From an uncultured bacterium (lineage in GTDB: Bacteria > Planctomycetota > Phycisphaerae > Phycisphaerales > SM1A02): a stretch of 45,542 nt of DNA. This document shows positions 6,934 through 23,040 of this stretch, in pieces (the stretch's first letter is position 1; each line of letters begins with the position of its first letter). The notes beneath the pieces are model-generated. The model did no database searches. It was not told the DNA's origin and saw only the letters and a program-made list of their open reading frames with translations. A program made the translations under genes and the position numbers. The stretch covers positions 1-45,542 of the forward strand of contig CAIUGT010000154.1 of NCBI GenBank assembly GCA_903898755.1, written 5' to 3'.

Positions 6934-6943
6934 TATGGTTGAG

Positions 6944-8119
6944 TTAAGATTGTGTTTCTTCTGCGGGCAAACACCACAATCCGTCGCGGCATTGCATGGC
7001 GGCGCGCTTGGTGACATTGGGCAGAGTGATGGAAAATCCATCCCACGCCATGACCGCCAACACCGCCATGGCTACGGATTCACGCGCTGAAATATGCACT
7101 TTGCTTGCGACATCCGTGTTGAACACGGGTCGCTGAACCAATTCTTCAATGCGCTTGCACAACGTTGTGTTCATTGCGCCGCCGCCAGCCAAAAGCACTT
7201 CATGCGATGGACTGCTGCTGGTCAAGATGGACTGCGCAATACTTTTTGCCACTGCAAATACAGCCGTCGCAAGCAAGTCGCACGACGTCAGTTGTGGCGC
7301 CCATTGATTGACCCAATCTAGACCCTCATCGCCGCTTCCAAGCGAGCGATTTTGCGCGGCCGCGTTCTTCAACGCCGCGGTCAGCGCGGTTTCCGCAAGT
7401 GGATGCACCGAACCTTTGGCGGCGTTGCTGCCTTCGGGATCAAAATCCAAATCCAGTGCCAACTTCGCCGCGTGATCCAGAATGTGGTTGCACGCGCACA
7501 CATCGCGGCCATTTATTTTCGTAGCGTCGTCCACGCTAGAGGGCAGCCACGTGATGTTGCAGAAGCCGCCCAAGTTCACAATGGCGCGTGGTCGGTGGCC
7601 GCGGAATAAAATCCAATCCGCAAGCGGCGTGATGGGCGCCCCTTGGCCGCCCGTCGCCAAATCCGCGCCGCGCAAATCGCTTGCCACTGGACAGCGCAGC
7701 GCGCGCGCGATTGGAAATGGATTGATGATTTGCCACGACAGCGGGGGCGCGTGGAAAATAGTTTGTCCGTGAATGCCGGCCACATCAATAGCCAGAGTGG
7801 TTGACGCAGCGCTGTTGTGCGCTTTCAACATTTCAAGCGCGCTTGCGGCGTGAAAGTTTCCAAAGTCAAGCGCCAAGCGCGCGAAGTCGCCGGCTGAAAA
7901 AGGTTTGCCCTGCGAAGCCGCGCGCAAGCGTGGACGCAGCGCGCCAAGATCAAATGTGTTGTGGTGCAAAAGTGTGGCGCACGAATGCAAGCCACTCTCG
8001 GTGATTTCTACCAACGCCATGTCAAGCGCGTCCAAACTTGTGCCCGTCATTGCGCCCAAAGCAACGCGCCGATGCGGCCGTGTCGTGTTGAACTTTGAAT
8101 TGGCGAATGAAAGTTCCAT
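6944..8119 (-). CDS. anmK: Anhydro-N-acetylmuramic acid kinase AnmK
   Basis: AnmK phosphorylates and opens 1,6-anhydroMurNAc released during peptidoglycan turnover, giving MurNAc-6-phosphate for reuse. The 391-residue sequence fits the family: [12 protein letters not shown] at about residues 22-33 (phosphate loop with catalytic Asp), [21 protein letters not shown], and GGGAMN near residue 310. It lies directly upstream of phoB with ten bases between, so the cell-wall recycling gene and the phosphate regulators may share a transcript. It starts divergently 68 bases from the UDP-sugar decarboxylase gene. Confidence 0.92.
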
Positions 8120-8187
8120 GCGCGCATCTTCCCCGCCAGCGCCCTTGCCGTCGAGCAGTTTTTCAATGCTTTCGCTACATTTACTTC

Positions 8188-9165
8188 ATGCGAAAACGAA
8201 TTCTGGTCACTGGAGGCGCTGGGTTTCTAGGTTCACACCTGTGCGATCGCCTGGTTGAGGCCGGCCACGAGGTGGTTTGCCTGGATAATTTCTTTACTAG
8301 TCACCGCGGAAACATTGAACATTTGCTAGGCAAGACCAACTTTGAGTTGGTGCGCGCGGACGTGACCAATCCTGTGCAATTTGAAGTGGATCAAATTTAT
8401 AATTTGGCGTGTCCCGCGGCTCCGGGCCACTATCAATACAACCCAATTAAAACCCTCAAGACCAGCGTCATGGGCGCCATGAATGTGCTTGGTCTTGCGC
8501 GCCGCGTGCGTGCGCGCGTGTTGCAAGCCAGCACCAGTGAGGTGTACGGCGATCCCGCGGTGCATCCGCAAGTTGAAAGTTACTGGGGCAATGTCAATCC
8601 AATTGGTCCGCGCGCCTGTTACGACGAGGGCAAGCGCGCCGCCGAAACATTGTTCTTTGACTATCACCGCACGAACAATGTTTCCATTCGCGTGGCGCGC
8701 ATCTTCAATACATATGGTCCGCGCATTCATCCATTTGACGGCCGCGTGGTGAGCAATTTTATTCGCCAAGCCGTCGCGGGTCAGGACATCACGTTGTTTG
8801 GTGATGGCAGCCAGAGCCGCAGTTTTTGCTACGTGGATGATTTGGTCGACGGCTTGATGAAGTTGATGGCCGCGCCCGACGAGTGCACGGGTCCGATCAA
8901 TTTGGGAAACACAAATGAATTCACCGTGAAGCAACTTGCGGAAAAAATTGTCGCAATCGCTGGCACGAAATCCAAAGTGGTCACGGGTCGGCCGCTTCCT
9001 CAAGATGATCCAACGCGCAGGCAACCCGACATTTCGTTGGCCAAGAAATCGCTTGGGTGGGAGCCAAAGGTTGCTTTGGACGAAGGCTTGCGCCGCACCA
9101 TTGACTGGTTCCGCACCATTGATTTGACCGATTACCGGCCGCCCACGCCAAATTTTGTGACATAA
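8188..9165 (+). CDS. UDP-glucuronate decarboxylase (UDP-xylose synthase), SDR family
   Basis: Extended SDR enzymes of this type oxidise and decarboxylate UDP-glucuronate to UDP-xylose, a precursor for surface polysaccharides. ATG 8188 gives 325 residues that begin right at the nucleotide-binding motif [12 protein letters not shown]. Further marks are [12 protein letters not shown] (close to UXS enzymes), the Ser in STSEVYGDP, the catalytic Y-x-x-x-K as [30 protein letters not shown], and [13 protein letters not shown]. The frame is open upstream to 8095, but that part overlaps the anmK start on the other strand and has no fold. dTDP-glucose dehydratase is less likely given the CPAAPGHYQ and GRVVSNF motifs. 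Confidence 0.88.
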
Positions 9166-9493
9166 ATTAAGGCGTAGAAGCGGATTGAGAAAAATCTAAA
9201 TGAGCAGCTTAAATGCTGTCACATTCCATTTTGTTCTGCGTTTGTTAGGTGGGACCGAAGAAAAAAGGCAGTGTTTCCTGGAATGCGGCAAATGCAGGGT
9301 AGAGTTCATACAAGAATTCAACCCTAAAAATTACCGAACAAAGGGTTGACTAGCCGATTGAAATCGGATACCTATCAGATACCGAACAAATGATTTGGCA
9401 TTGGAGCCAAATCAAATGCAAGGAAATATCAACGTTCGGACAGTTTCAAGCCTGTTTCTATAAGAAACAACAACCAAGGAAGGTTACTTACAC
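9166..9493 (+). other. 328-base intergenic control region upstream of recA
   Basis: This holds no convincing gene. It carries, in order, an 11-base direct repeat TACCGAACAAA at 9332-9342 and 9380-9390, a -35-like TTGACT at 9346-9351, a 6-2-6 inverted repeat CCGATT/AATCGG at 9354-9367, an 8-base stem GATTTGGC/GCCAAATC at 9392-9413, a GTTTCT/AGAAAC hairpin at 9454-9468, and the purine-rich ribosome site AAGGAAGG ending ten bases before ATG 9494. Confidence 0.6.
9332..9390 (+). promoter_or_regulatory. Putative recA promoter and operator repeats
   Basis: Two exact copies of TACCGAACAAA, 48 bases apart, bracket a TTGACT hexamer and a perfect inverted repeat (CCGATT, two bases, AATCGG) placed where the promoter spacer would be. 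The matching -10 (TACCTA, 17 bases after TTGACT) is weak. The arrangement suggests a repressor site, possibly SOS control, but it does not match the Escherichia or Bacillus LexA consensus. Confidence 0.35.
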
Positions 9494-10831
9494 ATGGTCG
9501 CATCAACAGATTCAAAAGGTGGCAACGGAGCATTAAGCGCAAGCAAAGATGTCAAAGGTGACGCGCGGGCAACTCCCGCTTCTGGAAATTCCAGAATTTC
9601 ATTAGGAAGTTCAACTTCCGCAGTGGCAACGGGCGCTGTGTCAGCTACAACTCAATCAGTGGCGAAACCAGCGATGACGTCTGGCGCAACAAACGCAACT
9701 GAAAGGTCAAACATGTCCAAGCAAGCCGTCGAGTCCAAGCCAGAAATCAAATCTGACATCAAGTCCGACAAGGCGCTAACCGCCAAGGAAACCGTGGAGC
9801 AAAAATCAAAATTGAAAGCCATTGAGCAAGCCATGGGCCAAATTGAGAAGGCTTACGGCAAGGGCAGCATCATGCGTCTTGATGGTGATTTGCCGGAACC
9901 AATTCAAGGCATCTCAACTGGCGCGCTCAGTTTGGATTTGGCTTTGGGCGGACGTGGTTTGCCACGCGGACGAGTTGTAGAAATCTTTGGTCCAGAATCA
10001 AGTGGTAAAACAACATTGGCGCTCACAGCCATTGCCAACACGCAACGTGAAGGCGGCGTTGCCGCATTCATCGACGCGGAGCACGCGCTTGATCCATCGT
10101 GGGCCAAGCGTTTGGGTGTGAATTTGGATGAAATTCTTGTTTCACAACCAGACACGGGAGAGCAGGCGCTTGAAATTTGCGAGATGTTGGTTCGATCCAA
10201 CGCCGTGAACATGGTGGTCATTGATTCCGTGGCGGCACTTATTCCACGCGCTGAAATCGAGGGTGAAATGGGCGATAGCCACATGGGTTTACAGGCACGT
10301 CTTATGAGCCAAGCGTTGCGTAAGTTGACTGGCGCCATCGCCAAGAGCGATTGCGTTGTGGTGTTCATCAATCAGTTGCGTGAAAAAATTGGCGTCATGT
10401 TTGGCAGCCCAGAAACAACCACGGGCGGTCGCGCGCTCAAGTTCTACGCCACGGTGCGCATTGATATTCGCCGCATTGGGCAGATCAAAGAGGGCGATCG
10501 AATTGTGGGCAATCGCATTAAGACCAAAGTGGTCAAGAACAAAATTGCGCCGCCATTCCGTGAGGCGGAATTCGACATCATGTTCGATGAGGGTATTTCC
10601 ACCTCAGGCGACGTTCTGGACATGGCCACCGCGGATGAGGTGGTGGACAAGAGCGGTTCGTGGTTCAGCTACGGAGCCACGCGACTCGGTCAAGGTCGTG
10701 AAGGCGCCAAGTTGTTCCTGCGCCAGAATCCGGCGTTGCTTGATGAAATTCGCAAGGCCGTCATGGTGAAGCGTTTGGCGAATCCAAATGGAATTCCAGC
10801 CAAGCTTAAGGATGAGTCCGACGACGAGTGA
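9494..10831 (+). CDS. recA: Recombinase RecA with long N-terminal extension
   Basis: RecA polymerises on single-stranded DNA, drives homologous strand exchange and triggers the SOS response. The RecA core runs from about residue 104 ([26 protein letters not shown] split over the first helix) and holds Walker A GPESSGKT at 166-173, DAEHALDP, Walker [10 protein letters not shown], and loop L2 [19 protein letters not shown] 9494 has AAGGAAGG upstream and adds about 100 Ser/Ala/Thr/Lys-rich residues not found in ordinary RecA. A second candidate start, ATG 9713 (Met74), has GAAAGG six bases upstream and would leave about 30 residues before the core. The acidic C-terminal tail (DESDDE) is present. 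Confidence 0.97.
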
Positions 10832-11132
10832 GTTGATATGCCAATGTCTGGTGGTTTCATCGCCTGATTCTGTTTTGAACGGATTCAAAGTGTTGAGCTG
10901 CCATTAGAAAGAAGTTGCCGGGTTGGGCGGTTCTCGACGGAGCCGCTCAGCTTGGAAAACTTATTTCAACATTCAATAGTTGAATGAAGTCCGACATGGG
11001 TCGGACTTTTTCCTTTTTTTTGTGCGATTCCAATGCGAAAAACATATTGCTTGCGTGTGCGCAATTTGTTTTTTCTACAGCGCGCCTGAAAAACTCAATA
11101 CCATATTTCAAGCGGTTCCGTGTGATGCGACT
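10832..11132. other. Intergenic region between recA and the convergent dehydrogenase gene
   Basis: There is no gene in these 301 bases. A GC-rich hairpin (GCGGTTCT/GGAGCCGC, loop CGAC, 10928-10947) is followed by the recA terminator at 10987-11022. The rest, about 110 bases up to the dehydrogenase stop, shows nothing I can interpret. Confidence 0.6.
10987..11022 (+). terminator. Intrinsic terminator of recA
   Basis: A perfect 9-bp stem AAGTCCGAC/GTCGGACTT with loop ATGG is followed by TTTT, CC and eight more T. Its position, 155 bases after the recA stop, fits transcription ending here. Confidence 0.88.
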
Positions 11133-12575
11133 TTATTTGTCCAGCCCGCGCAGCGCTAAATATTGCGTTGTGACATATTCCATCAATCCCCAAACGCCTC
11201 CTTCGCGTCCAAATCCGCTCCATTTTACTCCGCCAAAGGGTGCGCGAGCGTTGCTGGGGACAGCTTCATTTACGCCAATCACGCCGCATTGCAATTGTTG
11301 CGCCGCGTCACGAGCGGTCTTGTCATTGCCGCCAAACACATAGCCAGCCAATCCAAACGGACTTCCATTCGCAACTTCTATGGCCTCCTTTGCGGAAGTC
11401 ACGCTCATAATTGGAATCACCGGACCAAACGTCTCCTCCTCAAAACACAACATGCTGGGATTGCAATTAGAAATTACAGTTGGTTCATAAAAACGGTCGG
11501 GGCGGTCGGGGATTTCCTTTGTACGTCCGCCACACACTAATTTTCCGCCACGAGCTAATGCATCCGTCACATGCGATCGGACTTTGTCAACGGCCGCATC
11601 ATGAATCAGCGGACCGATTTGACAACCAGTTTCCATGCCAGGCGCAATCTTGAATTGCGCCGCCGCCACGGCCACGCGCGCCGTGAATTCGCTGGCAATA
11701 TCTTCATGCACAAGAAAACGATTTGGGCAAATGCATGTTTGACCCGCATTACGAAACTTGGCTTGCATGGCGCCTTGCACCGCCAATTCAAGATCCGCGT
11801 CCGCAAGAACAATGAAGGCCGCGTGTCCGCCAAGTTCCATGGAGCAGCGGACAATTTCCTGCGCGCATTGGCGCAAAAGTAAACGTCCAGTTTCCGTGCT
11901 TCCTGTGAAGCTGAGTTTGCGCACGCGGCCATCCATAAGCCAGGTTGTGGCGATGGATTTAGCGTCGCCTGTCAGCACATTCAAGCATTGCGGGGGCAGT
12001 CCGCACTCCAACAGAATTTCGGCAAGCGCGAAAGCAGAAAGCGGTGTTTCTTCGGCGGGCTTGGCCAGTTGCGTGCAACCCGCGGCAAGGGCAGGGGCAA
12101 TCTTGCGCGCCAACATGGCCAGCGGAAAGTTCCAGGGCGTGATAGCCGCGCACACGCCAACCGCTCTATGGCGCACAACGCCGCTCACGCCTGGTCGATC
12201 AAGGGCGATTTCCATTTCATTTAGCGCGTGCATTTCATTGGCGGCGCATGAAAAATAATCGGCGGAGTACTGAACTTCGCCCGCGGCCTCGGCGAGTGGT
12301 TTGCCGCACTCTTGCGTGATGATGCGCGCCAATGCATCTTTTCTTGCAACCAAAAGTTTGGCCGTGGCGTGCAATACCGCGGCGCGTTGAGCGGGTGGCG
12401 TGGCTTCCCACTGGGGCTGAAATTCATACGCGCTGTTGAGCGCGCTCAACGCCTCGCTTGCTCCGCACATGGGCACCCGCGCGATCACCATGTCGCTTGC
12501 GGGATCAACCACTTCAATCGCGTCACTTGAAGAAATATCCGTCCATCGACCTGCGATCAAATTACGTGTTTCCAT
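11133..12575 (-). CDS. NAD(P)-dependent semialdehyde dehydrogenase (GabD-like)
   Basis: This aldehyde dehydrogenase superfamily enzyme oxidises an aldehyde to the acid with NAD(P). Succinate semialdehyde is the best guess from KFRNAGQTCICPNRF around the catalytic cysteine, which resembles GabD. From ATG 12575 (480 residues) the landmarks are TPWNFPLAMLARKIAPAL (146-163), cofactor Lys172, SFTGSTETG (222-230), general base Glu247 in ELGGHAAF, and nucleophile Cys281. The frame extends six codons upstream to GTG 12593, but ATG 12575 fits the family start and has GGGGA just before it. Only 37 bases separate it from the divergent WXG100-like gene, so the two must share or overlap promoters. Substrate is not provable from sequence. 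Confidence 0.85.
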   Translation of the reverse strand: METRNLIAGRWTDISSSDAIEVVDPASDMVIARVPMCGASEALSALNSAYEFQPQWEATPPAQRAAVLHATAKLLVARKDALARIITQECGKPLAEAAGEVQYSADYFSCAANEMHALNEMEIALDRPGVSGVVRHRAVGVCAAITPWNFPLAMLARKIAPALAAGCTQLAKPAEETPLSAFALAEILLECGLPPQCLNVLTGDAKSIATTWLMDGRVRKLSFTGSTETGRLLLRQCAQEIVRCSMELGGHAAFIVLADADLELAVQGAMQAKFRNAGQTCICPNRFLVHEDIASEFTARVAVAAAQFKIAPGMETGCQIGPLIHDAAVDKVRSHVTDALARGGKLVCGGRTKEIPDRPDRFYEPTVISNCNPSMLCFEEETFGPVIPIMSVTSAKEAIEVANGSPFGLAGYVFGGNDKTARDAAQQLQCGVIGVNEAVPSNARAPFGGVKWSGFGREGGVWGLMEYVTTQYLALRGLDK

Positions 12576-12612
12576 TGTCCCCAAAGCGTACACTTATGAA
12601 AGAGGTAATCCC

Positions 12613-12885
12613 ATGGCCAAAGCAATTGTTGATCCCAATGAACTCCGCCGTTTCGCTGGCGACTTGAAGAAATTTAACAACGATGTGCAAACTCAAATGA
12701 CACGCGTTGGCGCCTCGCTTGGCGGGTTGCAACAGACGTGGCGTGATCAAGAGCAAGTCAAATTCTCCGAAGAGTTTGAGCAAACCATGCGGGCTCTTCA
12801 AAAATTTGTCAAAGCCTGCGACACGCATATTCCGTTTCTTGTCCGTAAGGCGGAGCGCATAGAGGAATATCTCAATCAGCGTTGA
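12613..12885 (+). CDS. WXG100-like small helical protein (type VII secretion substrate or partner)
   Basis: The 90-residue protein is almost all helix, with a central turn around LQQTWRDQEQVKF (residues 39-51), in the place of the W-x-G hairpin of EsxA/WXG100 proteins. Here the motif reads W-R-D. The VDPNELRRFAGDLKKFN start and KFSEEFEQTMRALQKF second helix resemble planctomycete proteins annotated as WXG100 type VII targets (recalled family pattern, not a search). The canonical C-terminal Y-x-x-x-D/E export signal is absent; the end is EEYLNQR. ATG 12613 has AGAGGT just upstream, so longer in-frame starts are rejected. It is first of four same-strand genes. Confidence 0.72.
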   Translation: MAKAIVDPNELRRFAGDLKKFNNDVQTQMTRVGASLGGLQQTWRDQEQVKFSEEFEQTMRALQKFVKACDTHIPFLVRKAERIEEYLNQR

Positions 12886-12908
12886 TCGCGCAGGCAATTG
12901 AACCAAAC

Positions 12909-13538
12909 ATGGATCCGCAGCAAGCCAATCTTCAATCCATTCATGTTCTGGAGAACACTCGCGCCGCGTTTATTCGTTGCCGCGAGGATGTTGGACTTGC
13001 CCTCGCGGAGGCGGACAGCGAAGTGGATCGTTTGGTGACCTGGCTTCAAAATGATCGAGTGATGTATTGGCGTGGCCGCGTGAATCGTCTTCGCGAAGAC
13101 ATGAACAACGCACGCAGCGCGTTGTTTCGTAAGGAAACCGTGACAAGCAGCAAGGATTCCAAGCCAAGCACGGTGGATGAACGCAAGGCGCTTGCCAAGG
13201 TGAAGGACATGCTTGAAGATGCGGAGCGCCGCGCCGCGCGTACAAAGACATGGGCGCTCAATTTCCCTCGCGAACAAGCGTTGTTCAAAGGCGCGACGGC
13301 TTTGACCGCATCCATGCATGAGCGCGAATTACCAGCAGCTATTTTGGCTTTGGGAAGAATGGTGGTTGCAATCGAGCGCTATGTTCGCGATGAGGCTCCA
13401 GACCTTTCCAAAATGCTGGAAGTGGAACTGGCGCAAACCGACAAGACGGCCAACATGAAGCGCGCCGTTGACGAAGAACAGAAGTCTGGCAACGCGGACG
13501 ACTCTTCGCAACAGCAATCCTGGGAGCGACCAACATGA
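12909..13538 (+). CDS. Unrecognised helical protein of the type VII-like cluster
   Basis: I do not recognise this 209-residue protein. It is predicted to be mostly helical and strongly charged, with likely coiled-coil stretches (about 15-60 and 75-115), no signal peptide and no membrane segment. The C-terminal 25 residues are polar, Gln/Ser-rich and probably disordered. ATG 12909 lies 23 bases after the first gene's stop; TTG 12882, overlapping that stop, would add nine residues. Its stop overlaps the next ATG by four bases (ATGA), so it is probably co-translated with the third gene. From position it may be a structural component, chaperone or substrate of the secretion cluster. Confidence 0.7.
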   Translation: MDPQQANLQSIHVLENTRAAFIRCREDVGLALAEADSEVDRLVTWLQNDRVMYWRGRVNRLREDMNNARSALFRKETVTSSKDSKPSTVDERKALAKVKDMLEDAERRAARTKTWALNFPREQALFKGATALTASMHERELPAAILALGRMVVAIERYVRDEAPDLSKMLEVELAQTDKTANMKRAVDEEQKSGNADDSSQQQSWERPT

Positions 13539-13765
13539 GCGTTGAAGGAGGACGACAACGTTTGTATGGTGCGCTGAAAGAATTCCGTACAAAGTGGGCG
13601 GAATCTCAAAGTCAATGGAATGATCAAGCGTCACAGATGTTGCAAAAAAAATATGTGCAGCCACTTGAAGATGGTGGCAAATCAGCTTTGCAAGCCATGG
13701 AAGTCATGCGGGATTTGATCGCGCGCATCCGCAGCGAATGCAATGATCCAAATTCAATTCAATAG
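13535..13765 (+). CDS. Second WXG100-like small protein
   Basis: A 76-residue helical protein with a turn at SQSQWNDQASQMLQKKY (about 24-40). Again it is W-x-D, not W-x-G, followed by a second helix QPLEDGGKSALQAMEVMRDL. The size, helix-turn-helix layout and neighbourhood suggest it is a divergent member of the EsxA-like fold, possibly the dimer partner of the first gene's product, as EsxA pairs with EsxB. ATG 13535 overlaps the preceding TGA, giving translational coupling. The family assignment rests on pattern and context only. Confidence 0.62.
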   Translation: MSVEGGRQRLYGALKEFRTKWAESQSQWNDQASQMLQKKYVQPLEDGGKSALQAMEVMRDLIARIRSECNDPNSIQ

Positions 13766-13808
13766 TCCCGCATGATCACATATCAATACACTTGTACGAT
13801 AGAAAGCA

Positions 13809-16800
13809 GTGAGCAACTCCAACATGGACTCTGAAATTCCAGACCCTCTTGAGGAGTGTGGCGCACGTTGGAAAACGCTGCGCAACGCCTGTCAAGCTCA
13901 CGCTCAAGCGCTCGCTCTTTCCCAAAAAGAAATTCACGCCCTGCGCCAAGCGGAATTATCCCGCCATCAATTGGAAATGAATCGCATTGAAAGCGAGCGG
14001 GAAAAATACTCCGCTCAATGCGAGCGCATTCTCAAAGACGCGCAGGATCAAACAGTTGCTGCCGCAGAATTGGAGCTTCGCAACGCAGATGATCAGTCGC
14101 GAGTTCAACAGGAGGAAATTCAAAATAAATTCAAGGACAACTCCCAATCTGCCAAGCAGCATTTGGAGGAGGCGATTTGGATGGCTGACAGCGTGTTGGA
14201 AACTGGCGAATCCGCTCCGCGGGTTGAATTTGAGGAGGCGCGAACTCGGATTGCGCAAATGCAAATCACGCTCAATGAATCTTTTGAAGCGGCTTGTTTC
14301 CAATTGAAACGGTATCGTCAGTCGCAACCGGCTCCGCAACCCATTGATCGCAATTTGTCTCCAAAGGCTTGTGAAGGAATCTTGTCAATGCAGGCGGCCG
14401 TGGCCATGGATTCATTGGCGCGATTTCGTAAATTAAAATTGGCGGGTTTATTTCGTGGGCCCATCTTGCTTGTTCCTTCCATCATGGTCACAGGAACACT
14501 GACAGGTGTTGCCGCGCTTGCGGGCATTCGAGGCAACGGGCTTGTGGCCGCAGTTGTGGCGGGAATTCTGTTGAGCGCGGTTGGAATTACGGTGTTGTGG
14601 CTCCTTGCCCGCAAGCAAGTGCGCCATGCATGGATTCCAATTTCCAAAGCGCACCAAGTTGGTCTTCTTGCGGGTGAAATGGCAATGCAAGCCGCCGTCG
14701 AACATCGGCGAGCAACAATCGCCGCGGCCATTGCCACACGCGATCACGAAGTCAAAGTCGCCAAGGCAAAATGGACGCCTATTTTAGATGATGTACTCGC
14801 TAAAAGTCGCGGGATGCTTGAGGAAGTCAAGCAGGCACGCAATCAAAAGAAAATTGAAATTGAAAACAGAAAAGCAAATTTATTGCGGCGCGCTCTTGAA
14901 GTGGCGGAAGCCACTCGCCAACAGGTGGCCAGTGCGGCAAGTTCCGCAGAAGCGCATGAGAGAAAAAAAACAAGTGAGAAGAGCGCCGCATGCGACGCGC
15001 TTGAAGCAGCGAGCGCACATGATCGACGCGCCATCTGGCGCACGGAGCGCGATACTTTTTATCAGTGGACGGTGTCCATGGGTGAGAAATTAAATGTTCT
15101 GTTGTCGCCGTGGGAGCAGTCTGCCGTTGCGGCAAATCTGCCGCAACGCATTTCCGAGGGAATGGCTTTTGGTTCACTCGTGTTAGATCTTTCCACAATC
15201 GAAAATTCCACGCCGACAGAGCCAGATTGCGCGTGGCCAAATTTTTCACGGACCGCTCCAGCTTGGACTATTCCCGCCTTTCGCCCTCTTCCAAATGCTC
15301 CGTCCTTGTTGGTGGAGGCCCCATTGCAAGGGCGTGCCCAGGCGCTTGAAATGATTCAAAGCGCGGCGCTTCGTCTTTTAACGCAGACGCCTGCTGGCAA
15401 AGTTCGTTTCTACTTTTTTGATCCAGTTGGACTTGGTCAAAATTTCGCGGGCTTCATGCATCTGGCTGACGAGATGGAGTCATTGGTGAGCGAGCGAATT
15501 TGGAGCGAGTCGCGCCATATTGAGCAAAAATTGACGGATCTCACCGAGTATGTGGAGACCGTCATTCAGAAATATTTGCGTAATGAATTCGCGACCATCG
15601 CTGACTACAACGAGCAAGCGGGGGAGTTGGCCGAGCCTCTTCGCATTATTGTGTTCGCGGATTTTCCAGAGGGATTGACAGATGCTGGAAGTAAACGCTT
15701 TGCCAGTTTGCTTCAATCTGGCGCGCGTTGTGGCGTGCATTTTTTGCTGCTTCGTGATCCAACCAAACCGCTTCCTGAATTGATCAAGGAAAATGAAGTG
15801 CTGCAACGTTGCATGAGGGTTCGCTGGGAACAAGATCGGTTTGTCGTGGATGCCCCTGGTCTTGAAGATGTTCCATTCACTCCAGCCACCATGCCAAGCG
15901 CGGCGGTGTTGCAAACCATTTTGCAACAAATTGGGCGTGCCGCCAAAGCTGGATCCAGGGTGGAGGTTCCATTTCAAGCCATTGAGCCCAAACTTGATCA
16001 GCGCTGGACAAGTTCAAGCGCGAAAATTCTGCGCGTGCCTGTGGGTAGAAGCGGCGCAAATAAATTGCAATCCATTGAAATTGGCGAAGGCACAAGGCAG
16101 CATGTTTTGCTTGCGGGCAAAACAGGTTCCGGCAAGAGCACCTTGCTGCACGCGCTCATCACGAATGTCGCGCTGTGGTATTCACCTGATGAGGTTGAAT
16201 TGTGGTTGATCGATTTCAAGAAGGGCGTCGAATTTAAGGCGTATGCAACCCACGCTTTGCCGCACGCGCGAGCGGTGGCTGTGGAAAGCGATCGTGAATT
16301 TGGACTCAGTGTTCTGCAAGGACTTGATGTGGAACTGAAGCGTCGCGGTGATTTATTCCGCGACGCCGGTGTTCAAGATTTGGCGGCGTGGAGATTGCTT
16401 GGCAAGACGGAGTCCATGCCGCGCACCTTGTTAATCGTTGACGAATTTCAAGAATTATTTGTGGAAGAGGACAAGGTCGCTCAAGATTCCTCGTTGTTAC
16501 TTGATCGCTTGGTGCGACAAGGCCGCGCGTTTGGAATGCATGTCATTCTTGGTTCTCAAACGCTTGGCGGAACATATGCGTTGCCTCGCACCACCATGGG
16601 ACAAATGGGAATTCGCATTGCGCTGCAATGCAACGAGGCTGACTCCGCCATGATTTTGTCAGACGACAACACAGCCGCGCGTCTTCTTTCGCGTCCTGGC
16701 GAGGCTATTTACAACGACGCTGGTGGCTTGATTGAGGGCAATAGTCCATTTCAAGTTGTTTGGCTTACCGATGCGCAGCGTGATGAACGTGTGCGAGAAC

Positions 16801-17693
16801 TGGCCATCTCGGCGCGCGCCAAAGGAGTTTCTGATCGCAAGATGATTGTGTTTGACGGCACCGCCGCCGCGCGCATTGAACAGTGTCAGCCACTTCTTGA
16901 TTTGATTCAGCAGCCGACCACCAAAAGCGTGACCGCGTTGCAGATTTTTCTAGGAAATCCAGTGGCCATTCGCAACGCCAGCGTCATTACCCTTCGCAGG
17001 CAGTCTGGCGCCAACATCATTGTTGTTGGTCAACGAGAAGATGTTGCGATGGGTTTAAGCGTGGCCGCGCTTGTAAGTTTCGCCGCGGTCACGCGCCATA
17101 TTTCTGGCCGCGTGATTCTGCTTGACGGAACCACTCCTGATTCTCCCACGGCTGGAGCGCTTCAATCCACGATTGAAACCCTCAAGCTCAACGCGGAAGT
17201 TCCAAACTATCGCGATTGCGACGCCGCCATTGTTCAACTGGGCCAAGAGGTTGCGCAACGCATCGCCGATGGGCGACAAGATCAGCCGCCTATCTTGCTC
17301 ATGGTTCACGGTCTTCAACGCTATCGCACGCTGCGCAAAGACGAGGACGATTTTTCCATGTCAAGTGATGGTCCGCCCAAACCCGACAAGGTGCTTGGCG
17401 CAATCTTGCGTGACGGTCCCGCAGTTGGCGTGCATGTATTTGCATGGGCTGACACCGCGCCAAGTTTGCAGCGCTGCATTGATCGAAACGCGCTTCGTGA
17501 ATTTGATTTTCGCGTCTTGATGCAAATGAGCGCAAATGATTCCAGCTATCTCATGGACACGCCTGCCGCGTCGCGCTTGGGTGCGGAGCGCGCCTTGATC
17601 TTTAGCGAGGAAAAAGGCGCGACCGAGCGCTTTCGTCCATTTGAGATCGCATCGGCGCAAGTGCTTGCAAAGTTGTTCACTTCACATTCGTAA
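13809..17693 (+). CDS. Membrane-anchored FtsK/EssC-like ATPase
   Basis: This 1294-residue protein has the layout of a type VII secretion motor. A charged coiled-coil N-terminal region (about 15-200) precedes two membrane helices (218-240 and 245-267), a second coiled coil (about 300-430), a linker domain, and then an FtsK/SpoIIIE ATPase. The ATPase has Walker A GKTGSGKST at 770-778, Walker B LLIVDEF (D878, E879) and the downstream RIALQCNEADSAMIL segment. A further ATPase-like module follows near 1050-1290, but its P-loop is degenerate (GQRED at 1074-1078, no GKS/T) and Walker B lacks Asp-Glu. EssC and EccC also have tandem ATPase domains. No FHA domain is seen. Start is GTG 13809; ATG 13824 is an alternative. 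The 3' end overlaps the convergent desulfurase gene by 17 bases. Confidence 0.85.
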   Translation: MSNSNMDSEIPDPLEECGARWKTLRNACQAHAQALALSQKEIHALRQAELSRHQLEMNRIESEREKYSAQCERILKDAQDQTVAAAELELRNADDQSRVQQEEIQNKFKDNSQSAKQHLEEAIWMADSVLETGESAPRVEFEEARTRIAQMQITLNESFEAACFQLKRYRQSQPAPQPIDRNLSPKACEGILSMQAAVAMDSLARFRKLKLAGLFRGPILLVPSIMVTGTLTGVAALAGIRGNGLVAAVVAGILLSAVGITVLWLLARKQVRHAWIPISKAHQVGLLAGEMAMQAAVEHRRATIAAAIATRDHEVKVAKAKWTPILDDVLAKSRGMLEEVKQARNQKKIEIENRKANLLRRALEVAEATRQQVASAASSAEAHERKKTSEKSAACDALEAASAHDRRAIWRTERDTFYQWTVSMGEKLNVLLSPWEQSAVAANLPQRISEGMAFGSLVLDLSTIENSTPTEPDCAWPNFSRTAPAWTIPAFRPLPNAPSLLVEAPLQGRAQALEMIQSAALRLLTQTPAGKVRFYFFDPVGLGQNFAGFMHLADEMESLVSERIWSESRHIEQKLTDLTEYVETVIQKYLRNEFATIADYNEQAGELAEPLRIIVFADFPEGLTDAGSKRFASLLQSGARCGVHFLLLRDPTKPLPELIKENEVLQRCMRVRWEQDRFVVDAPGLEDVPFTPATMPSAAVLQTILQQIGRAAKAGSRVEVPFQAIEPKLDQRWTSSSAKILRVPVGRSGANKLQSIEIGEGTRQHVLLAGKTGSGKSTLLHALITNVALWYSPDEVELWLIDFKKGVEFKAYATHALPHARAVAVESDREFGLSVLQGLDVELKRRGDLFRDAGVQDLAAWRLLGKTESMPRTLLIVDEFQELFVEEDKVAQDSSLLLDRLVRQGRAFGMHVILGSQTLGGTYALPRTTMGQMGIRIALQCNEADSAMILSDDNTAARLLSRPGEAIYNDAGGLIEGNSPFQVVWLTDAQRDERVRELAISARAKGVSDRKMIVFDGTAAARIEQCQPLLDLIQQPTTKSVTALQIFLGNPVAIRNASVITLRRQSGANIIVVGQREDVAMGLSVAALVSFAAVTRHISGRVILLDGTTPDSPTAGALQSTIETLKLNAEVPNYRDCDAAIVQLGQEVAQRIADGRQDQPPILLMVHGLQRYRTLRKDEDDFSMSSDGPPKPDKVLGAILRDGPAVGVHVFAWADTAPSLQRCIDRNALREFDFRVLMQMSANDSSYLMDTPAASRLGAERALIFSEEKGATERFRPFEIASAQVLAKLFTSHS

Positions 17694-18852
17694 TCGCCGC
17701 GCCAGTGCGGGCGCGAAGTTTGCGCACGCAATCGCACACAATTGTGGCGGCTTGAACGACTTCTTCACGCGTTGTGAAGCGCGACAGGCTGAAGCGCACG
17801 CTTCCGTGGGCTAGAACGGGTGGAACCCCCATAGCTAATAGCACGGGCGAAGGATCCAGAGAGCCCGAACTGCACGCCGCGCCTGCGCTGGCGCAAAGAT
17901 TCTCATTGGAAAGCGCTAGTAAAATTGCTTCCGCTTCCAAATGTGCAAACGCGATATTGGTTGTGTTCCATATTCTATTTGTGGCAACGCCATTCATCAT
18001 CGCATCAGGAATTGCCGTTTGTATCAAAGTTTCAAATTGATTCCTGAACTCCGCGGCGTGATTCATATCCGCCGCGTCCAACCACCTACGGGCGGCTTGT
18101 GCTGCCATGCCAAAGCCAATAATCCCAGAAACATTTTCCGTCCCGGCGCGACGATCACGCTCTTGTGGACCGCCCACAAGTTGGGCTGAAATACCAGCGC
18201 CTCGACGCGCGAACAATGCCGCCGCGCCTTTGGGGCCATGGAGTTTGTGCGCGGAGAATGTGGCAAAATCAACTGGGGCATTCGCCACATCAAATGGATG
18301 GCGACCCACTGACTGCGTGGCGTCGGTATGAAATAGAACATTTTTCTCTCTGCACAATTCACCCACGACTTGCAGGGGAAGAATGACGCCAGTCTCATTG
18401 TTCACGGACATCAGCGAAACCAACGCAATGTCATCGCCATGTTTTTGAAGCACCTCTCGCAAGTGATCAAGATGTATTTCGCCGCTGTGCGCATGCTCAA
18501 CCCAAATCACTTCGCACTGGCCCGCGGCTTCAAGGTGTTGCGCCAAAGTTCGCACCGCTGCGTGTTCTAATTTGCTGGTGACAATCACTCGCCGCTTTGG
18601 ATGCGCTTCCAAAACGCCGCGCAATGCCAGCGACGCAGACTCTGTTCCACTGGAGCAAAAAATAATTTCACGCGCCGAGCAGCCGACAAGTTGCGCGACA
18701 TGTTCTCGAGCGTGCTCAAGTTGCGCGCGTGCCGCTTGTCCAAATCGATGAACGCTGCTGGGATTACCCCAATTGTTGGCCAGTGATTCGCGCATGGCTT
18801 CCACAACTTCCGCAAGCGGCATGGTGGTGGCGTTGTTGTCCAAATAGATCAC
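17677..18852 (-). CDS. Cysteine desulfurase (NifS/IscS family)
   Basis: This PLP enzyme takes sulfur from cysteine for Fe-S clusters and tRNA thiolation. The 391-residue protein starts with IYLDNNATT, binds PLP through Lys203 in SAHKLHGPKG, has SSGTESASLALRG (the phosphate-binding turn) and HTDATQSVG, and keeps the mobile catalytic loop with Cys327 in ASAGAACSSGSLDPSPVL. The SSGS loop and length fit the NifS/IscS group rather than SufS. No scaffold gene (iscU or nifU) is adjacent. It is convergent with the FtsK-like gene and overlaps its end. Confidence 0.92.
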   Translation of the reverse strand: MIYLDNNATTMPLAEVVEAMRESLANNWGNPSSVHRFGQAARAQLEHAREHVAQLVGCSAREIIFCSSGTESASLALRGVLEAHPKRRVIVTSKLEHAAVRTLAQHLEAAGQCEVIWVEHAHSGEIHLDHLREVLQKHGDDIALVSLMSVNNETGVILPLQVVGELCREKNVLFHTDATQSVGRHPFDVANAPVDFATFSAHKLHGPKGAAALFARRGAGISAQLVGGPQERDRRAGTENVSGIIGFGMAAQAARRWLDAADMNHAAEFRNQFETLIQTAIPDAMMNGVATNRIWNTTNIAFAHLEAEAILLALSNENLCASAGAACSSGSLDPSPVLLAMGVPPVLAHGSVRFSLSRFTTREEVVQAATIVCDCVRKLRARTGAAITNVK

Positions 18853-18893
18853 ATGTCAAGAGTAGGGTGGCGGCCACTCTTCGCCAATAAATA

Positions 18894-18922
18894 AAAAGCC
18901 CGACCACATGGATCGGACTTTT
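18894..18922 (-). terminator. Terminator after tRNA-Leu
   Basis: On the minus strand AAAAGTCCGA pairs with TCGGGCTTTT (one G-T pair) around a short loop and continues into a T run. It begins four bases past the tRNA 3' end. Confidence 0.75.
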
Positions 18923-18925
18923 CAA

Positions 18926-19009
18926 TGCGGATGAGAGGAATCGAACCTCCATGGGTGTGACCCCACAAGAACCTGAATCTTGCGCGTCTGCCAATTTCGC
19001 CACATCCGC
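18926..19009 (-). tRNA. tRNA-Leu (anticodon CAG)
   Basis: The acceptor stem GCGGATG/CATCCGC, the long variable arm expected of a class II tRNA, the T-loop GGTTCGATTCC and the anticodon arm CAAGA-TTCAGGT-TCTTG are all present. The loop gives anticodon CAG, reading CUG. Discriminator A is at 18926. The CCA end is not encoded. Confidence 0.95.
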
Positions 19010-19062
19010 AGGAAGAACAAGTGTACTTCGCCGCATTGCGTTTTGCATTTCGCAATCAAAAT

Positions 19063-19100
19063 GTAAATAAAACACGGGGTGGTCGTGGGACCACCCCGTG
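19063..19100 (-). terminator. Intrinsic terminator of rpoD
   Basis: A perfect 12-bp stem CACGGGGTGGTC/GACCACCCCGTG (19073-19100, loop GTGG) continues on the minus strand into TTTTATTTAC. It begins 22 bases after the rpoD stop and closes the dnaG-rpoD transcript. Confidence 0.9.
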
Positions 19101-19122
19101 CGAATTCAACCTTTCAAATGCT

Positions 19123-21063
19123 TCAATCCTCGGCGTCGTCTGTGATATCCGTTCCAATGTCAAGCACTTCGCCTTCGCCTGCGTCATCCGCGTCATCTTG
19201 CGAGACTAGGAAACTGGACAGGCGCTGACTTCGCACAGGATGTTGCAGCTTCTTCAACGCCTTGCTTTCAACTTGGCGCACTCGTTCGCGGGTCACCTTG
19301 AAGATTCGACCGACTTCCTCAAGGGTGTAGGTGTAGCCATCGCCAATGCCGTAGCGCAATTTCAAAATTTCACGCTCACGGTAGGTGAGTGTCTTCAACA
19401 CATCATTGATGCGCTGACGAAGCAACTCATTGCTCGCGGCTTCGGACGGACTTGACTGTCGTTCGTCCTCGATGAAATCTCCAAAGTGGCTGTCTTCGCT
19501 TTCGCCAACAGGGCGATCAAGCGAAATTGGATGGCGACTGATCTTCATCACGCGGCGAACTTCTTCGGCTGGCATCTTGGCTTTCGCCGCGATTTCTTCA
19601 CCGGTTGGTTCACGACCAAGCTCTTGAAGCAAATGCTTCTGAATGTTGCGCAACTTGCTCATGGTTTCAATCATGTGCACAGGCACGCGAATAGTTCGCG
19701 CGTGATCAGCGATGGCTCGCGTGATTGCCTGACGAATCCACCATGTCGCATACGTGCTGAACTTGTAGCCGCGTTGATACTCGTACTTGTCCACGGCGCG
19801 CATCAAGCCAGTGTTGCCTTCTTGAATAATGTCAAGGAATGGCAGTCCGCGGTTGCGATACTTCTTCGCGATGCTCACCACCAAGCGCAAATTTCCACCA
19901 GAAAGATCGCGCTTGGCTTGTTCATACTCGCCAAACACGCGCATAATGGCTTTCATACGCGCTTCAAGTTCCTCGGGATATTCAAACACAATGGATCGAA
20001 GACCAACCAGCTCCTCGCGCATCACAATTTGATCCTCGGGGTCAAATCGTTCTGGAAACTTCTCCGCCTTGAGAAGTTGGCGCTTCAAGTCAACCATTTT
20101 TCGATGGATGGACTGCAAGCGACGCATCAGTGGTTGAATACGGCCTGTTCGCAAGCAGCACTCTTCAAGCAGGGTTGCAACTTTTCGGCGACGAAGACGA
20201 AGCTCTTCCTTGATAACAACTTTACGATCTTCCGAAATTTCGGAATCCTCAAGTTGATTCCATTGGCGCTCGTTCATGTCGATCAATTTGGAAATGGTCT
20301 CAACATTTCCTGGAATGCGCGACGCGATCTTGCCCTTGGCATCTTCTTCCGCAGTGGAAATACGCATGGTTCGATCGAACGGCAATTTGCCGTCGCGCAC
20401 TTGCTTGAGAGTCTCAGTGGCCAATCGCGCCACGTAATCACTTTCAAGCGATTTTCGACGGAAGATCATGCGGGTGGTTTCAATTTTCTTAGCCAAGCGA
20501 ATTTCTTGTTCGCGGGTCAAAAGAGGAATTGTTCCCATCTGCGTCAGGTACATGCGAATTGGATCATCAATGCGCTTGCTGCCTTGCTCGGCCAATGCCT
20601 GCGCCACGATGGCCATGGCTTCCTCGTCATCCAAAATTTCATCATCAAGGTCGGCGGCTTCTGGAGCAGCTTTCGTGGAAGGAATTTCCACGACATCTTT
20701 CATCTGCTTGAGAACCTTTGGTTGCGCACCCGCGCTTAAAATTGGCGCTGGTGGCGGGCCTTGAATCGCCGCTGGAACCGAGCACGCATCTTTGCGGTGC
20801 TTGGGATTGTCGCGGTGAAACTTCAAGTTGGTTTGCAATGGCGCGTCCAGTGGAGTGAGCTTGTTGCGCTGCACTTCAATCTCATCCACCATGTCAATCC
20901 CATTTTCACTGAGCAACACGAAGAGCTCATCAATACGATCGGCGTTGACGAACTCATCTGGCAAGCAGGTGTTGAGTTCTTCATAGCTAATCCACTTTTG
21001 CTGGCGACCTTTTTCAACAAGGCGACGAAGAGTGGCTTTCAGATCTTTAATGGCAAGACTCAC
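19123..21063 (-). CDS. rpoD: Primary RNA polymerase sigma factor RpoD (sigma-70)
   Basis: This is the housekeeping sigma factor that directs RNA polymerase to most promoters. At 646 residues it has region 1.1 (first 65 or so residues, including [11 protein letters not shown]), region 1.2 [21 protein letters not shown], a long non-conserved insert, region 2 ([26 protein letters not shown], then [28 protein letters not shown] in adjoining parts), region 3, and region 4.2 with [17 protein letters not shown]. Region 1.1 and the insert mark it as a group 1 sigma. Start is GTG 21063, supported by GGAG eight bases upstream. It follows dnaG by 36 bases. Confidence 0.97.
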
Positions 21064-21099
21064 GGTTCAACTCCAATTCTTTGTAAGAGGGAAAAACAT

Positions 21100-23040
21100 T
21101 CAAGATTGATCCGCAGACGCTTTCGCTACGGTTTCAGTTCGGTTCAAATTCCGCATATTTTGCGCAATTGCAGTGGGGTTATGACCCCCTCGGCGCACTT
21201 GTTCCAATCGAGCAAGTGCATCCTCGGAGTTCATCAAATGGTTCGCATTGTGTTTGATATCGGCGTCATGCAGGAATTTGTCAAAATCAGCGGCGGCGTT
21301 GCGCACAGCTTCTGAGGCGTCCATATGTTCATTGCGTTGACTACCAATGTGAAATAGCTCGCCGCAGAGGGCTTTGAGCGAAGGCTCTTGGCACTCGGCT
21401 TGAATGTCTTGGACATGGAATGAAGAACCAGATTCAAAACGCATGACAAGCAGGCTCCATAGTTGTCGAAGATCGGTTCGTTCGAAGTGTTCTGGTGAAA
21501 AAGCTTCTGAAATGGGCAATAACCCTTCTGTTCCCACTTGCACGCGTACTTGCGCGGCATGTGGATCCGCCATGATGGCCGCCAATAAATTTTTCTCCGC
21601 CATTCGTCGAGCTTTGTGTCGAGGACTTGATGGAGGCTCTTGCACAAGTTGTGGAGCAATGGTTTGGGTTGAGGCTGTCTCGTTCAATTTCAATTCGGCG
21701 CGCGCTTGCGGCATGGCTTGTTCAAGTGTCCGCACTGGAACGCCGGTCAATTTTGAAAGCGCGTTCATGACAAAACTTTTGCGTAGTGGTTCAACTGATC
21801 GAAAACCAAGCTCGCCAAGTTTGCGCAGCAACTCTTGCAAGCGCTGTTGTTTTCCAGACATGCTTTCCACGGATTCAAGATTCGCCTTGAAGCGGCGCAC
21901 CATCCATGACAAAGCTTCTTCACCATTTGCAAGCGCGGCGTTGAAATCATTCAGCCCATTTGGGCGCTGCAATAATTCGTCTGCATCAAGACCATCAGGC
22001 AATGTGGCAATGCGAACATCGACAGGGACGGCCAGGAAAGTTTCCACGGCGCGGTCGGCGGCGCGCTCTCCAGCGTTGTCCGGATCAAACACCACGGTGA
22101 TTCGCTCCGCCATTCGCTGCAATGCCTTAGCATGATCTTTTGTCAGCGCAGTGCCTAAAGTGGCAATGACATTGGTCACGCCAGCTTGATGCAAAGCAAC
22201 GGCGTCCACATAGCCTTCCACCACAATCGCGTGCTTGGAATCAATAATGGATCGGCGCGCCCGATGCAGCGCATACAGGGTGCGTCCCTTTGAAAACAGG
22301 GGGGAATCAGGGCTATTCAGATATTTTGGTTCGTCATTTGGGTCAAGCCGACGCGCGCCAAACGCAATGACATTTCCCAATTCGTCATGAATAGGAAACA
22401 ACAAGCGATTGCGGAAGCCATCAATTGGACCGCGTTGTCCGCTGCGAATGAGTCCAAGCGCCTCGAAACTTTCACGCGCAATTTTGTCTGTGGAATTCGC
22501 GGAGTGCTGAATCAACTTTTCAATGTGACGCGCGAGATGGTCCCAGCCTTCAGGTGCCACGCCAAGTTGAAAATCTTCACGGGTCTGCGCGTTGAGCACG
22601 CGCTCATTCAAGTGCGTGCGCGCCGTGGCTCCAAGAGTCTCATCTTGCAGGCAGCGCTGATAAAATTTAGCGGCCGCTGCCATGGCTTTGCGCAGCGATT
22701 CTTTGCTTGTGGCTGGATCCTTGGGACCTTCTTCGCGCATTGAACGCAATTCAATTCCGCAGCGCTGCCCCAAATATTTCAAGGCCTCGCGGAATTCCAT
22801 CTTGTGGAAATTCATGACAAAGTCAATCGCGTTTCCAGCCGCTCCGCACGCGAAGCAGTTGTAAAAAGCATTTCCTTTGTGCGTCACAACCGCCATGCTT
22901 GGCGATTTGTCCTCATGGAATGGACAAAGTCCCACGTGCTCTCGGCCTCTAGGCTTCAGAGAAACGTGTTCGCCAACAAGGGACACAAGATCAGTTGCGT
23001 CCAAAATGCGATCGCGATCGCTTTGTTGCGATAAAACCAT
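21100..23040 (-). CDS. dnaG: DNA primase DnaG
   Basis: DnaG makes RNA primers for DNA replication and works with the replicative helicase. The 646-residue protein has a CHC2 zinc finger (C39, H42, C62, C65, with CPFHEDKSPS and NCFACGAAGNAIDF), the primase core with the Toprim motifs VVEGYVDAVALHQAG and VFDPDNAGERAADRA, and a C-terminal region that would bind DnaB. All metal ligands are present. It forms the macromolecular-synthesis pair with rpoD; rpsU, often present in proteobacteria, is not in front of it. Confidence 0.96.
   Translation of the reverse strand: MVLSQQSDRDRILDATDLVSLVGEHVSLKPRGREHVGLCPFHEDKSPSMAVVTHKGNAFYNCFACGAAGNAIDFVMNFHKMEFREALKYLGQRCGIELRSMREEGPKDPATSKESLRKAMAAAAKFYQRCLQDETLGATARTHLNERVLNAQTREDFQLGVAPEGWDHLARHIEKLIQHSANSTDKIARESFEALGLIRSGQRGPIDGFRNRLLFPIHDELGNVIAFGARRLDPNDEPKYLNSPDSPLFSKGRTLYALHRARRSIIDSKHAIVVEGYVDAVALHQAGVTNVIATLGTALTKDHAKALQRMAERITVVFDPDNAGERAADRAVETFLAVPVDVRIATLPDGLDADELLQRPNGLNDFNAALANGEEALSWMVRRFKANLESVESMSGKQQRLQELLRKLGELGFRSVEPLRKSFVMNALSKLTGVPVRTLEQAMPQARAELKLNETASTQTIAPQLVQEPPSSPRHKARRMAEKNLLAAIMADPHAAQVRVQVGTEGLLPISEAFSPEHFERTDLRQLWSLLVMRFESGSSFHVQDIQAECQEPSLKALCGELFHIGSQRNEHMDASEAVRNAAADFDKFLHDADIKHNANHLMNSEDALARLEQVRRGGHNPTAIAQNMRNLNRTETVAKASADQS

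Follow-up and report, generated by a model that had tools for sequence, protein, structure and literature searches.

A four-gene planctomycete cluster pairing an EccC/EssC-like ATPase with WXG100-like proteins that carry W-x-D

Type VII secretion systems (T7SS) with several membrane subunits are known mainly from Bacillota and Actinomycetota, the phyla covered by a survey in which the known WXG100 proteins paired with EccC/EssC motors are exported and Lap proteins are small partners of LXG proteins (PMC11217815), and a 2016 survey omitted type VII secretion for lipopolysaccharide diderms as absent (PMC4793230). In one WXG100 subfamily, W-x-G is almost invariant at the hairpin turn (PMC3935865). 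Among the systems closest to the locus considered here is the ‘solo WXG’ class given in footnote 6 to Table 1 of a 2012 survey, where a YueA-like ATPase with three HerA/FtsK domains, the middle one active, accompanies the WXG protein, planctomycetes are among the hosts, and the class is termed mobile versions of T7SS (PMC3482391). HP0062 of Helicobacter pylori carries W-R-D and its gene is clustered with one encoding an FtsK/SpoIIIE protein (PMC3397514), HP0062 and HP0066 are named together with a WXG100 secretion-system cluster (PMC4978471), and the Type III-A CoCoNuT extension comprises an EssC-like ATPase, two WXG100 proteins and a coiled-coil nuclease (PMC11090510). Here, we describe a cluster of four genes, A to D, from an uncultured planctomycete of the order Phycisphaerales (assembly GCA_903898755.1, a 154-contig draft of 2.59 Mb, 91.6% complete), located on contig CAIUGT010000154.1, the 45,542 nucleotides of which form the window analyzed.

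The four-gene cluster and its ATPase

The cluster is recognizable by the families of its proteins, the predicted folds of B and C, conserved motifs, gene order, and the co-occurrence of A and D across Planctomycetota. All four open reading frames (ORFs) were confirmed in the window. A and B are separated by 23 nucleotides, B and C overlap by 4 nucleotides (ATGA), and C and D are 43 nucleotides apart; given these short gaps and the overlap, A-B-C-D look like one operon, with the following features.

12613..12885, plus strand: gene A, WXG100-fold protein of 90 amino acids (PF06013 match; HP0062, EsxB and EsxA relatives)
12739..12747, plus strand: W-R-D codons of A, W43-R44-D45 in the context T-W43-R-D45 (homologue alignment)
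12909..13538, plus strand: gene B, long helical hairpin with an acidic tail, 209 amino acids, ATG at 12909 (AlphaFold2; operon position of homologues)
13535..13765, plus strand: gene C, short WXG100-like hairpin of 76 amino acids (AlphaFold2 and profile-profile matches)
13616..13624, plus strand: W-N-D codons of C, W28-N29-D30 in the context Q-W28-N-D30 (homologue alignment)
13809..17693, plus strand: gene D, EccC/EssC-like ATPase of 1294 amino acids, GTG start (PF01580; solved relatives)
14463..14519, plus strand: predicted transmembrane segment 1 of D, residues ~219-237 (hydropathy 1.95)
14541..14597, plus strand: predicted transmembrane segment 2 of D, residues ~245-263 (hydropathy 2.64)
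15216..15953, plus strand: degenerate ATPase-like domain D1, residues 470-715, without Walker A (profile match to D3)
16116..16139, plus strand: Walker A GKTGSGKS of the middle domain D2, residues 770-777 (conserved residues)
16428..16445, plus strand: Walker B LLIVDE of D2, residues 874-879 (conserved residues)
16821..17690, plus strand: degenerate ATPase-like domain D3, residues 1005-1294 (profile match to D2)

D matches the Pfam FtsK/SpoIIIE family PF01580 with 103.9 bits, and its NCBIfam scores are 115.1 bits for EccCa (cut-off 509), 96.3 for EssC and 22.2 for FtsK (PRK10263). Among solved relatives, 4nh0 (titled FtsK/SpoIIIE), EccC5 (7np7) and YukB (9qks) rank ahead of FtsK chains. Judged by sequence, D is an EccC/EssC-type FtsK/SpoIIIE ATPase with a predicted membrane anchor, a relative of EccC and EssC that falls under the equivalog cut-offs and is not EccC or EssC proper. 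The D3 domain matched the D2 profile at 96.6% with a score of 71.4 (at most 21.9 in 30 shuffles), and D1 matched the D3 profile with a score of 68.3 (at most 19.8 in 30 shuffles), whereas the direct comparison of D1 with D2 gave 20.2, not above the 20.9 of the shuffles, so that D1 is called ATPase-like because of its match to D3 alone. Walker motifs were seen in D2 only, with none at the matching places of D1 and D3, and the D2 residues G773, G775, K776, S777, D878 and E879 are invariant in the compared set, which includes four plasmid relatives. A complete N-terminus is available for 105 of the 130 D homologues, and two hydrophobic segments were found at the expected place in 103 of these and one in the other 2.

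By eye, small coiled-coil proteins with a C-terminal hydrophobic stretch are encoded beside the ATPase on plasmids of Deinococcus (locus L030, 7168-7596, plus strand) and R. pseudokoreensis (L029, 10451-11062, plus strand); these might, perhaps, supply a membrane anchor in trans. On a Rhodococcus plasmid (L027, 6111-10460, plus strand), a TerD-like stretch, also recognized by eye, lies close to the N-terminus of the ATPase relative, whose gene adjoins two annotated TerD genes.

Hairpin proteins, the W-x-D motif and the client slot

Protein A matches the Pfam WXG100 family PF06013 with 44.9 bits, above the gathering threshold of 27.3, and is the sole WXG100 match in the draft genome. Compared with solved structures, the A family profile (73 rows) found HP0062 of H. 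pylori best (3fx7, E 1.1e-12; 2gts, 3.4e-12), followed by EsxB chains from 8.2e-10 (B. anthracis by title) and S. aureus EsxA at 7.8e-6, and in the alignment to HP0062, W-R-D falls on W-R-D. By homology, through near-full-length profile alignments to 3fx7 and to EsxB and EsxA chains, A is expected to be a helix-turn-helix hairpin. It is the most conserved of the four proteins, with a mean column identity of 66% compared to 52% for D, 37% for C and 30% for B, in row sets that differ in size. A is also kept when distant from D: in the sample of 12 such stretches, which leaves out further genomes with A and D on different contigs, A was present in 11, with B nearby in 5 and C in 3. None of A, B and C was seen at L176, where a WXG100 match lies under the cut-off.

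For C, an AlphaFold2 model built from 76 sequences consists of two helices (residues 3-27 and 31-70) with a mean predicted local distance difference test (pLDDT) score of 92.9, placing W28-N29-D30 at the turn. C has no PF06013 match in Pfam. Among 32 Foldseek matches, 11 were Esx-type chains, the best reaching a TM-score of 0.79 to EsxA, none with a significant E-value. The C profile matched S. aureus EsxA with an E-value of 0.0016, and C scored 32.3 against the A profile, compared with at most 17.7 in 100 column shuffles, 10.5 for the reversed profile, and 20.7 once W and D were masked. From the hairpin model and these profile matches to EsxA and A, C is a distant WXG100-like paralogue overlooked by Pfam. 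At least 90% of 76 rows share Cys69 of C (window 13739-13741), and a cysteine lies inside the last 35 residues in 89 of 101 C homologues; one possibility is a disulfide or a modification outside the cytoplasm.

The motif W-x-D is present in 96 of 97 A homologues, the remaining one starting past the motif at a contig end, and in all 101 C homologues (at the aligned column in 99 of 99), whereas W-x-G occurs in 0 of the 97 A homologues; these counts refer to letter-different homologues with E<1e-8 in the fetched loci, with near-copies from the same genus included and 2 of the 97 A sequences coming from plasmids. The A proteins of the plasmid relatives carry W-Q-D in Caballeronia and Deinococcus, W-K-D in Rhodococcus AH-ZY2 and W-G-D in Helicobacter NHP19-012; at a fifth plasmid locus, that of R. 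pseudokoreensis, which has the same ATPase type, no match to A or C was found. A second small protein with W-x-D is encoded in Rhodococcus AH-ZY2 and Deinococcus, and the second small proteins of Caballeronia and Helicobacter are without the motif. In these last two, the small protein before D scored 0.7 and 5.9 bits, respectively, against the C profile, and its correspondence to C is one of position and size. W-x-D thus tends to accompany this ATPase type across phyla and, given its presence in the plasmid relatives and in HP0062, is not specific to planctomycetes.

The AlphaFold2 model of B, built from 66 sequences, is all-helical, with two helices of about 70 residues (10-77 and 89-160), a short third one (166-180) and a weakly predicted tail (mean pLDDT 88.4). 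In the 89 shorter B homologues, acidic residues make up on average 22% of the final 35 positions and basic residues 8%. Of 101 B proteins from planctomycete-type loci, 12 are longer than 300 amino acids; 8 of these match the Imm33-like family PF24719 over the cut-off, another 3 match it with lower scores (15.0, 19.5 and 23.0 bits), and the last gives only a weak match to Imm33 (PF09951). In the loci with matches over the cut-off (L042, L041, L062, L097, L136, L139, L115 and L075), the Imm33-like domain is C-terminal.

The Helicobacter sp. NHP19-012 plasmid has the order A, coiled-coil nuclease, SUKH-1 protein, 77-amino-acid protein, D; in the slot B protein, a WHH/HNH nuclease domain (Pfam 44.6 bits, cut-off 25.1) is joined to a coiled coil, and the SUKH-1 protein after it scores 29.1 bits (cut-off 25.4). 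By analogy, this nuclease and the SUKH-1 protein resemble the effector-immunity layout of exported toxins, and a toxin next to an immunity protein argues for delivery between kin, with a toxin-antitoxin or defence role also possible. In the Caballeronia plasmid, A is followed by proteins of 436 (without a recognized Pfam domain), 113 and 76 amino acids, D, and then CARF, VWA, PP2C and kinase genes. From these analogies, we take slot B to be a client slot.

The original prediction, made from the window's letters, had described a compact type VII-like cluster of four genes in which a 209-residue helical protein lies between two small helical proteins with W-R-D and W-N-D at the helix turn in place of W-x-G, the first of them lacking a C-terminal Y-x-x-x-D/E, all preceding a two-helix membrane FtsK/EssC-like ATPase. 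The analysis agrees on each of these points: the C model and the matches of A to solved hairpins over its length yielded no fold other than a hairpin, B is modelled as all-helical, the predicted segments of D begin near residues 219 and 245 with EccC as its best likeness, and the export signal is missing from A throughout its family. The further suggestion that W-x-D or the minimal gene set is a planctomycete invention was not supported, as the same motif occurs in HP0062 and in four plasmid relatives, and a cluster of this kind was in print in 2012 (PMC3482391).

Distribution, neighbors and history

A-B-C lie upstream of D on the same strand at 67 of the 71 non-plasmid loci that offer 1500 or more nucleotides of upstream sequence, drawn from 128 loci unique by the last 300 amino acids of D after exclusion of 53 with less than 1500 nucleotides upstream and 4 plasmid loci. 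At the other four (L071, L072, L076 and L088), A-B-C were not found beside D, the D locus being the region inspected. With D called at E<=1e-30 and WXG100 at E<=0.001, D was detected in 62 of 392 Planctomycetota genomes (49 of 266 genera), WXG100 in 63 and both together in 60; the Pfam cut-off is passed in 53 of the 63 genomes with WXG100. The 2 genomes with D only are 80% and 61% complete, and the 3 with WXG100 only are all under the Pfam cut-off. The co-occurrence of A and D gives a Fisher p of 1.8e-64, a value that ignores the kinship of genomes and so overstates. Together, the gene order and the co-occurrence indicate that the cluster is not a chance arrangement, and the ATPase regularly adjoins A-B-C, where the original prediction would have been in difficulty had they never been neighbors.

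D is present in all 10 genomes of its own family in the phylum sample, and no family member is among 20 D-negative genomes, which start at the order level and beyond which there are 310 further negatives. Of 41 genomes from the same genus, family or order, 40 have a match at E<=0.001; in 13 of the 16 order-level genomes, it is the separate FtsK-like gene alone. Matches with E below 1e-80 were obtained for 14 of 16 genomes of the same genus, all 9 others of the family and 3 of the 16 from the order, the same-genus exceptions being G004, with a weaker fragment only, and G008, with none.

No recurrent fifth gene was found among ORFs of at least 90 amino acids. Apart from two larger ones, neighbor clusters reached at most 11 of 77 D groups, and these two are mostly antisense to A-B-C, with 57 of 65 and 18 of 18 ORFs, 75 of 83 together, overlapping these genes; we therefore rejected a conserved fifth gene of this length.

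In a FastTree tree of D (82 rows), rooted weakly on the four long plasmid branches and with order labels taken from the titles of metagenome-assembled genomes (MAGs), the other 78 rows lie on one side with support 99, as one clade that is mostly planctomycete. Within it, a Planctomycetia subclade of 31 rows (support 100) contains Pirellulales, Gemmatales, Isosphaeraceae, Planctomycetaceae and Kuenenia, with none titled Phycisphaerae or Phycisphaerales; rows with the latter titles are placed outside this subclade, where some differently titled rows also occur. Lentisphaerae and Verrucomicrobiales MAGs pair inside the planctomycete part. The D of a MAG titled Alphaproteobacteria (L082, PBMH01000006) is very close to a Phycisphaerales D, and this MAG is likely a mislabelled bin. 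With regard to mobility, D is patchy in the phylum (62 of 392 genomes), present in the 10 genomes of its own family, and has relatives on plasmids; the tree favors a gene long present in planctomycetes that was at times lost and sometimes transferred, with inheritance that looks mostly vertical.

A viral origin was considered and rejected. A single-protein scan of a viral contig collection, which reaches close relatives only, yielded no D relative, and in a phage collection, the best ten of 110 matches cover at most half of D, the longest being in an unverified faecal scaffold. This scaffold, filed as phage (L182, MT836827), encodes, at 2037-7371 on the plus strand, a D-like ATPase followed by a 349-amino-acid protein that starts with a W-x-D hairpin-like stretch and continues into a further C-terminal part.

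In the window, the 3' end of D (17677-17693) overlaps a convergent cysteine-desulfurase-like gene by 17 nucleotides. The genes on both sides, named from their sequences, are presumably housekeeping genes, as the original prediction also had it. A RecA-like ORF (window 9494-10831, plus strand) has, by eye, a Ser/Ala/Lys-rich N-terminal stretch of about 100 residues ahead of the usual RecA sequence.

Export, its alternatives and comparison with known systems

Our best reading is that the cluster encodes a type VII-like motor of minimal composition that exports helical clients; we consider this export reading to have about an even chance of being correct. D would be an inner-membrane protein of a diderm, anchored through its two-helix hairpin, and probably a hexamer with one active ring (D2), a degenerate ring on each side and a long cytoplasmic coiled coil. 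A probably dimerizes as HP0062 does and would be the constant partner of D. C, a second W-x-D hairpin that the 4-nucleotide gene overlap suggests is made together with B, is probably a small partner of B, like Lap for LXG. B would be the client, in the slot where relatives have a coiled coil with a nuclease domain, and the energy for carrying B and C, together with A, over the inner membrane would come from ATP hydrolyzed in D2. In favor of this reading are the much stronger likeness of D2 to EccC than to FtsK, beside a separate FtsK-like gene in the genome, the WXG100 folds of A and C, the co-occurrence of A and D and the persistence of A away from D, the paired transmembrane segments of D, the lack of a recurrent fifth gene of at least 90 amino acids, and the nuclease and SUKH-1 pair of the Helicobacter plasmid.

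Several results weigh against this reading. None of the 97 A proteins has Y-x-x-x-D/E within its last 40 residues, and the motif occurs there in 2 C and 7 B proteins, of 101 each; B of the window has Y158-x-x-x-E162, where the tyrosine is invariant (66 of 66) and the acid is present in only 7 of 66, so the motif is not a conserved export signal. EccB, YukC/EssB, YukD and LXG gave no match at E<=1 in the draft genome, and the EccE search returned noise alone (15.2 bits, cut-off 23.7); the EccB and EccE searches are without a positive control, since all 14 control genomes stayed under the cut-off. Accordingly, the original claim that accessory subunits are missing stands for EccB, YukC/EssB and YukD, with EccE below the cut-off, and for EsaA, EssA and mycosin, which were not searched, it is carried no further. 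Neither the tested families nor the recurrent neighbors included a channel or outer-membrane component. As to the client, window B has no recognized Pfam domain, its Foldseek matches are of coiled-coil type with none at E<=0.001, so that no known fold could be assigned, and no nuclease match was found among the B proteins scanned, namely the 12 long ones and that of the window. The planctomycete B profile misses the Helicobacter coiled-coil nuclease, and the two slots are matched by position and shape, not by sequence. Furthermore, four plasmid relatives of D are without the transmembrane pair, and the D of the Helicobacter plasmid likewise has none by peak hydropathy, with one stretch at 1.71. 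Three of these four adjoin stress or defence genes, namely TerD in Rhodococcus AH-ZY2, CARF, VWA, kinase and PP2C phosphatase genes in Caballeronia, and Hsp70/GrpE in R. pseudokoreensis, which fits a cytoplasmic stress or defence role. Finally, PADLOC matches D to SspH (94.9 bits) and mads_8 (81.2 bits), near the EccC and EssC scores.

These plasmid neighborhoods speak for the alternative that the cluster encodes a membrane-tethered machine which exports nothing, with A, B and C acting as adaptors or clamps for protein remodelling, disassembly or positioning at the inner membrane in stress or conflict. The planctomycete form shows no recognized channel or toxin, A lacks an export signal, and its conservation is more that of a machine part than of cargo. 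The transmembrane hairpin of nearly all complete D homologues, the immunity-type protein adjoining the Helicobacter relative, and the export of the known WXG100 partners of EccC/EssC motors (PMC11217815) speak against such a machine, which we regard as a serious, although somewhat doubtful, explanation.

A DNA-handling device, in which an FtsK-family motor moves DNA at the membrane under regulation by the hairpins, is improbable. It would account for the FtsK/SpoIIIE domain of D and for the PADLOC matches, SspH and mads_8 being parts of defence systems linked to DNA modification. However, a separate FtsK-like protein is encoded elsewhere in the genome (match at C26:15410-16195, within an open frame of 936 amino acids), D scores with EccC and not with FtsK in NCBIfam, and D closely co-occurs with WXG100 proteins. 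As the PADLOC matches, the best being SspH and mads_8, are confined to the ATPase domain, D was also rejected as a member of a defence system. An ordinary T7SSa or T7SSb with its remaining genes elsewhere or missed is highly improbable: the draft state of the assembly and the uncontrolled EccB and EccE searches leave it some room, but the searches for EccB, YukC/EssB, YukD and LXG came back empty and that for EccE gave noise alone, D has Walker motifs in the middle domain only, and the four-gene unit recurs without further genes of at least 90 amino acids.

Taking the export reading further, a more speculative scenario, which we consider unlikely as a whole, is that W-x-D marks a separate, old branch in which a single-active-ring ATPase and its hairpins would make up the whole inner-membrane translocase, and that planctomycetes turned a soluble, nuclease-carrying form into a chromosomal, membrane-anchored one whose client carries no toxin and which would be the smallest type VII-like protein exporter known. 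The hosts of this proposed branch would be mostly diderm, comprising Planctomycetota, Campylobacterota, Pseudomonadota, Deinococcota and one actinomycete plasmid. The conserved four-gene form itself, with D detected in 62 of 392 sampled planctomycete genomes, or roughly every sixth, would provide a minimal parts list of a type VII-like motor in a diderm and would join H. pylori HP0062/HP0066, the CoCoNuT extensions and the planctomycete clusters into one branch with a checkable signature, W-x-D together with an ATPase active in its middle domain only.

Among the open-access papers listed by our searches, we found no description of the four-gene planctomycete form, subscription journals being outside this scope. 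Already in print are the W-R-D of HP0062 (PMC3397514) and the middle-active three-domain ATPase with a solo WXG protein (PMC3482391); what is new is that planctomycetes have a fixed form with four genes, that C is a second W-x-D hairpin and that D has a predicted transmembrane hairpin, together with the statistics on co-occurrence, the mostly vertical-looking inheritance and the client-slot argument.

The cluster genuinely resembles type VII secretion systems, but only in part. With T7SSa and T7SSb, and with T7SSc to T7SSj (PMC11217815), the planctomycete operon shares an EccC/EssC-type ATPase and a WXG100-fold protein. In contrast to these systems, it has no YukD, YukC/EssB or EccB matches and one intact ATPase domain, its A protein has W-x-D in place of W-x-G and no Y-x-x-x-D/E, and its hosts are planctomycetes. 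As the tested core subunits, W-x-G and the export signal of A are absent, the operon is not a member of T7SSa or T7SSb. On sequence grounds, it has both structural features of the ‘solo WXG’ class (PMC3482391), three FtsK-like domains and Walker motifs in the middle one alone, together with a WXG100 partner; however, the planctomycete unit looks mainly old and vertical, and W-x-D, C, B and the transmembrane hairpin go unmentioned in the available text of that survey. Compared by description, HP0062 of H. pylori is alike in being a helical-hairpin dimer with W-R-D whose gene is clustered with that of an FtsK/SpoIIIE protein. By eye, no CnuB/CnuC, TerY-P or helicase genes were recognized in the flanks of the operon (6944-23040). 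With the CoCoNuT extension (PMC11090510), of which we infer the Caballeronia plasmid NZ_CP049321 to be a Type III-A example, the operon shares three ATPase domains with the central one active, an N-terminal coiled coil, two WXG100-type proteins and a coiled-coil protein, but the CoCoNuT versions are without transmembrane segments and carry a nuclease on the coiled coil, whereas the planctomycete D has a predicted transmembrane hairpin and its operon stands alone.

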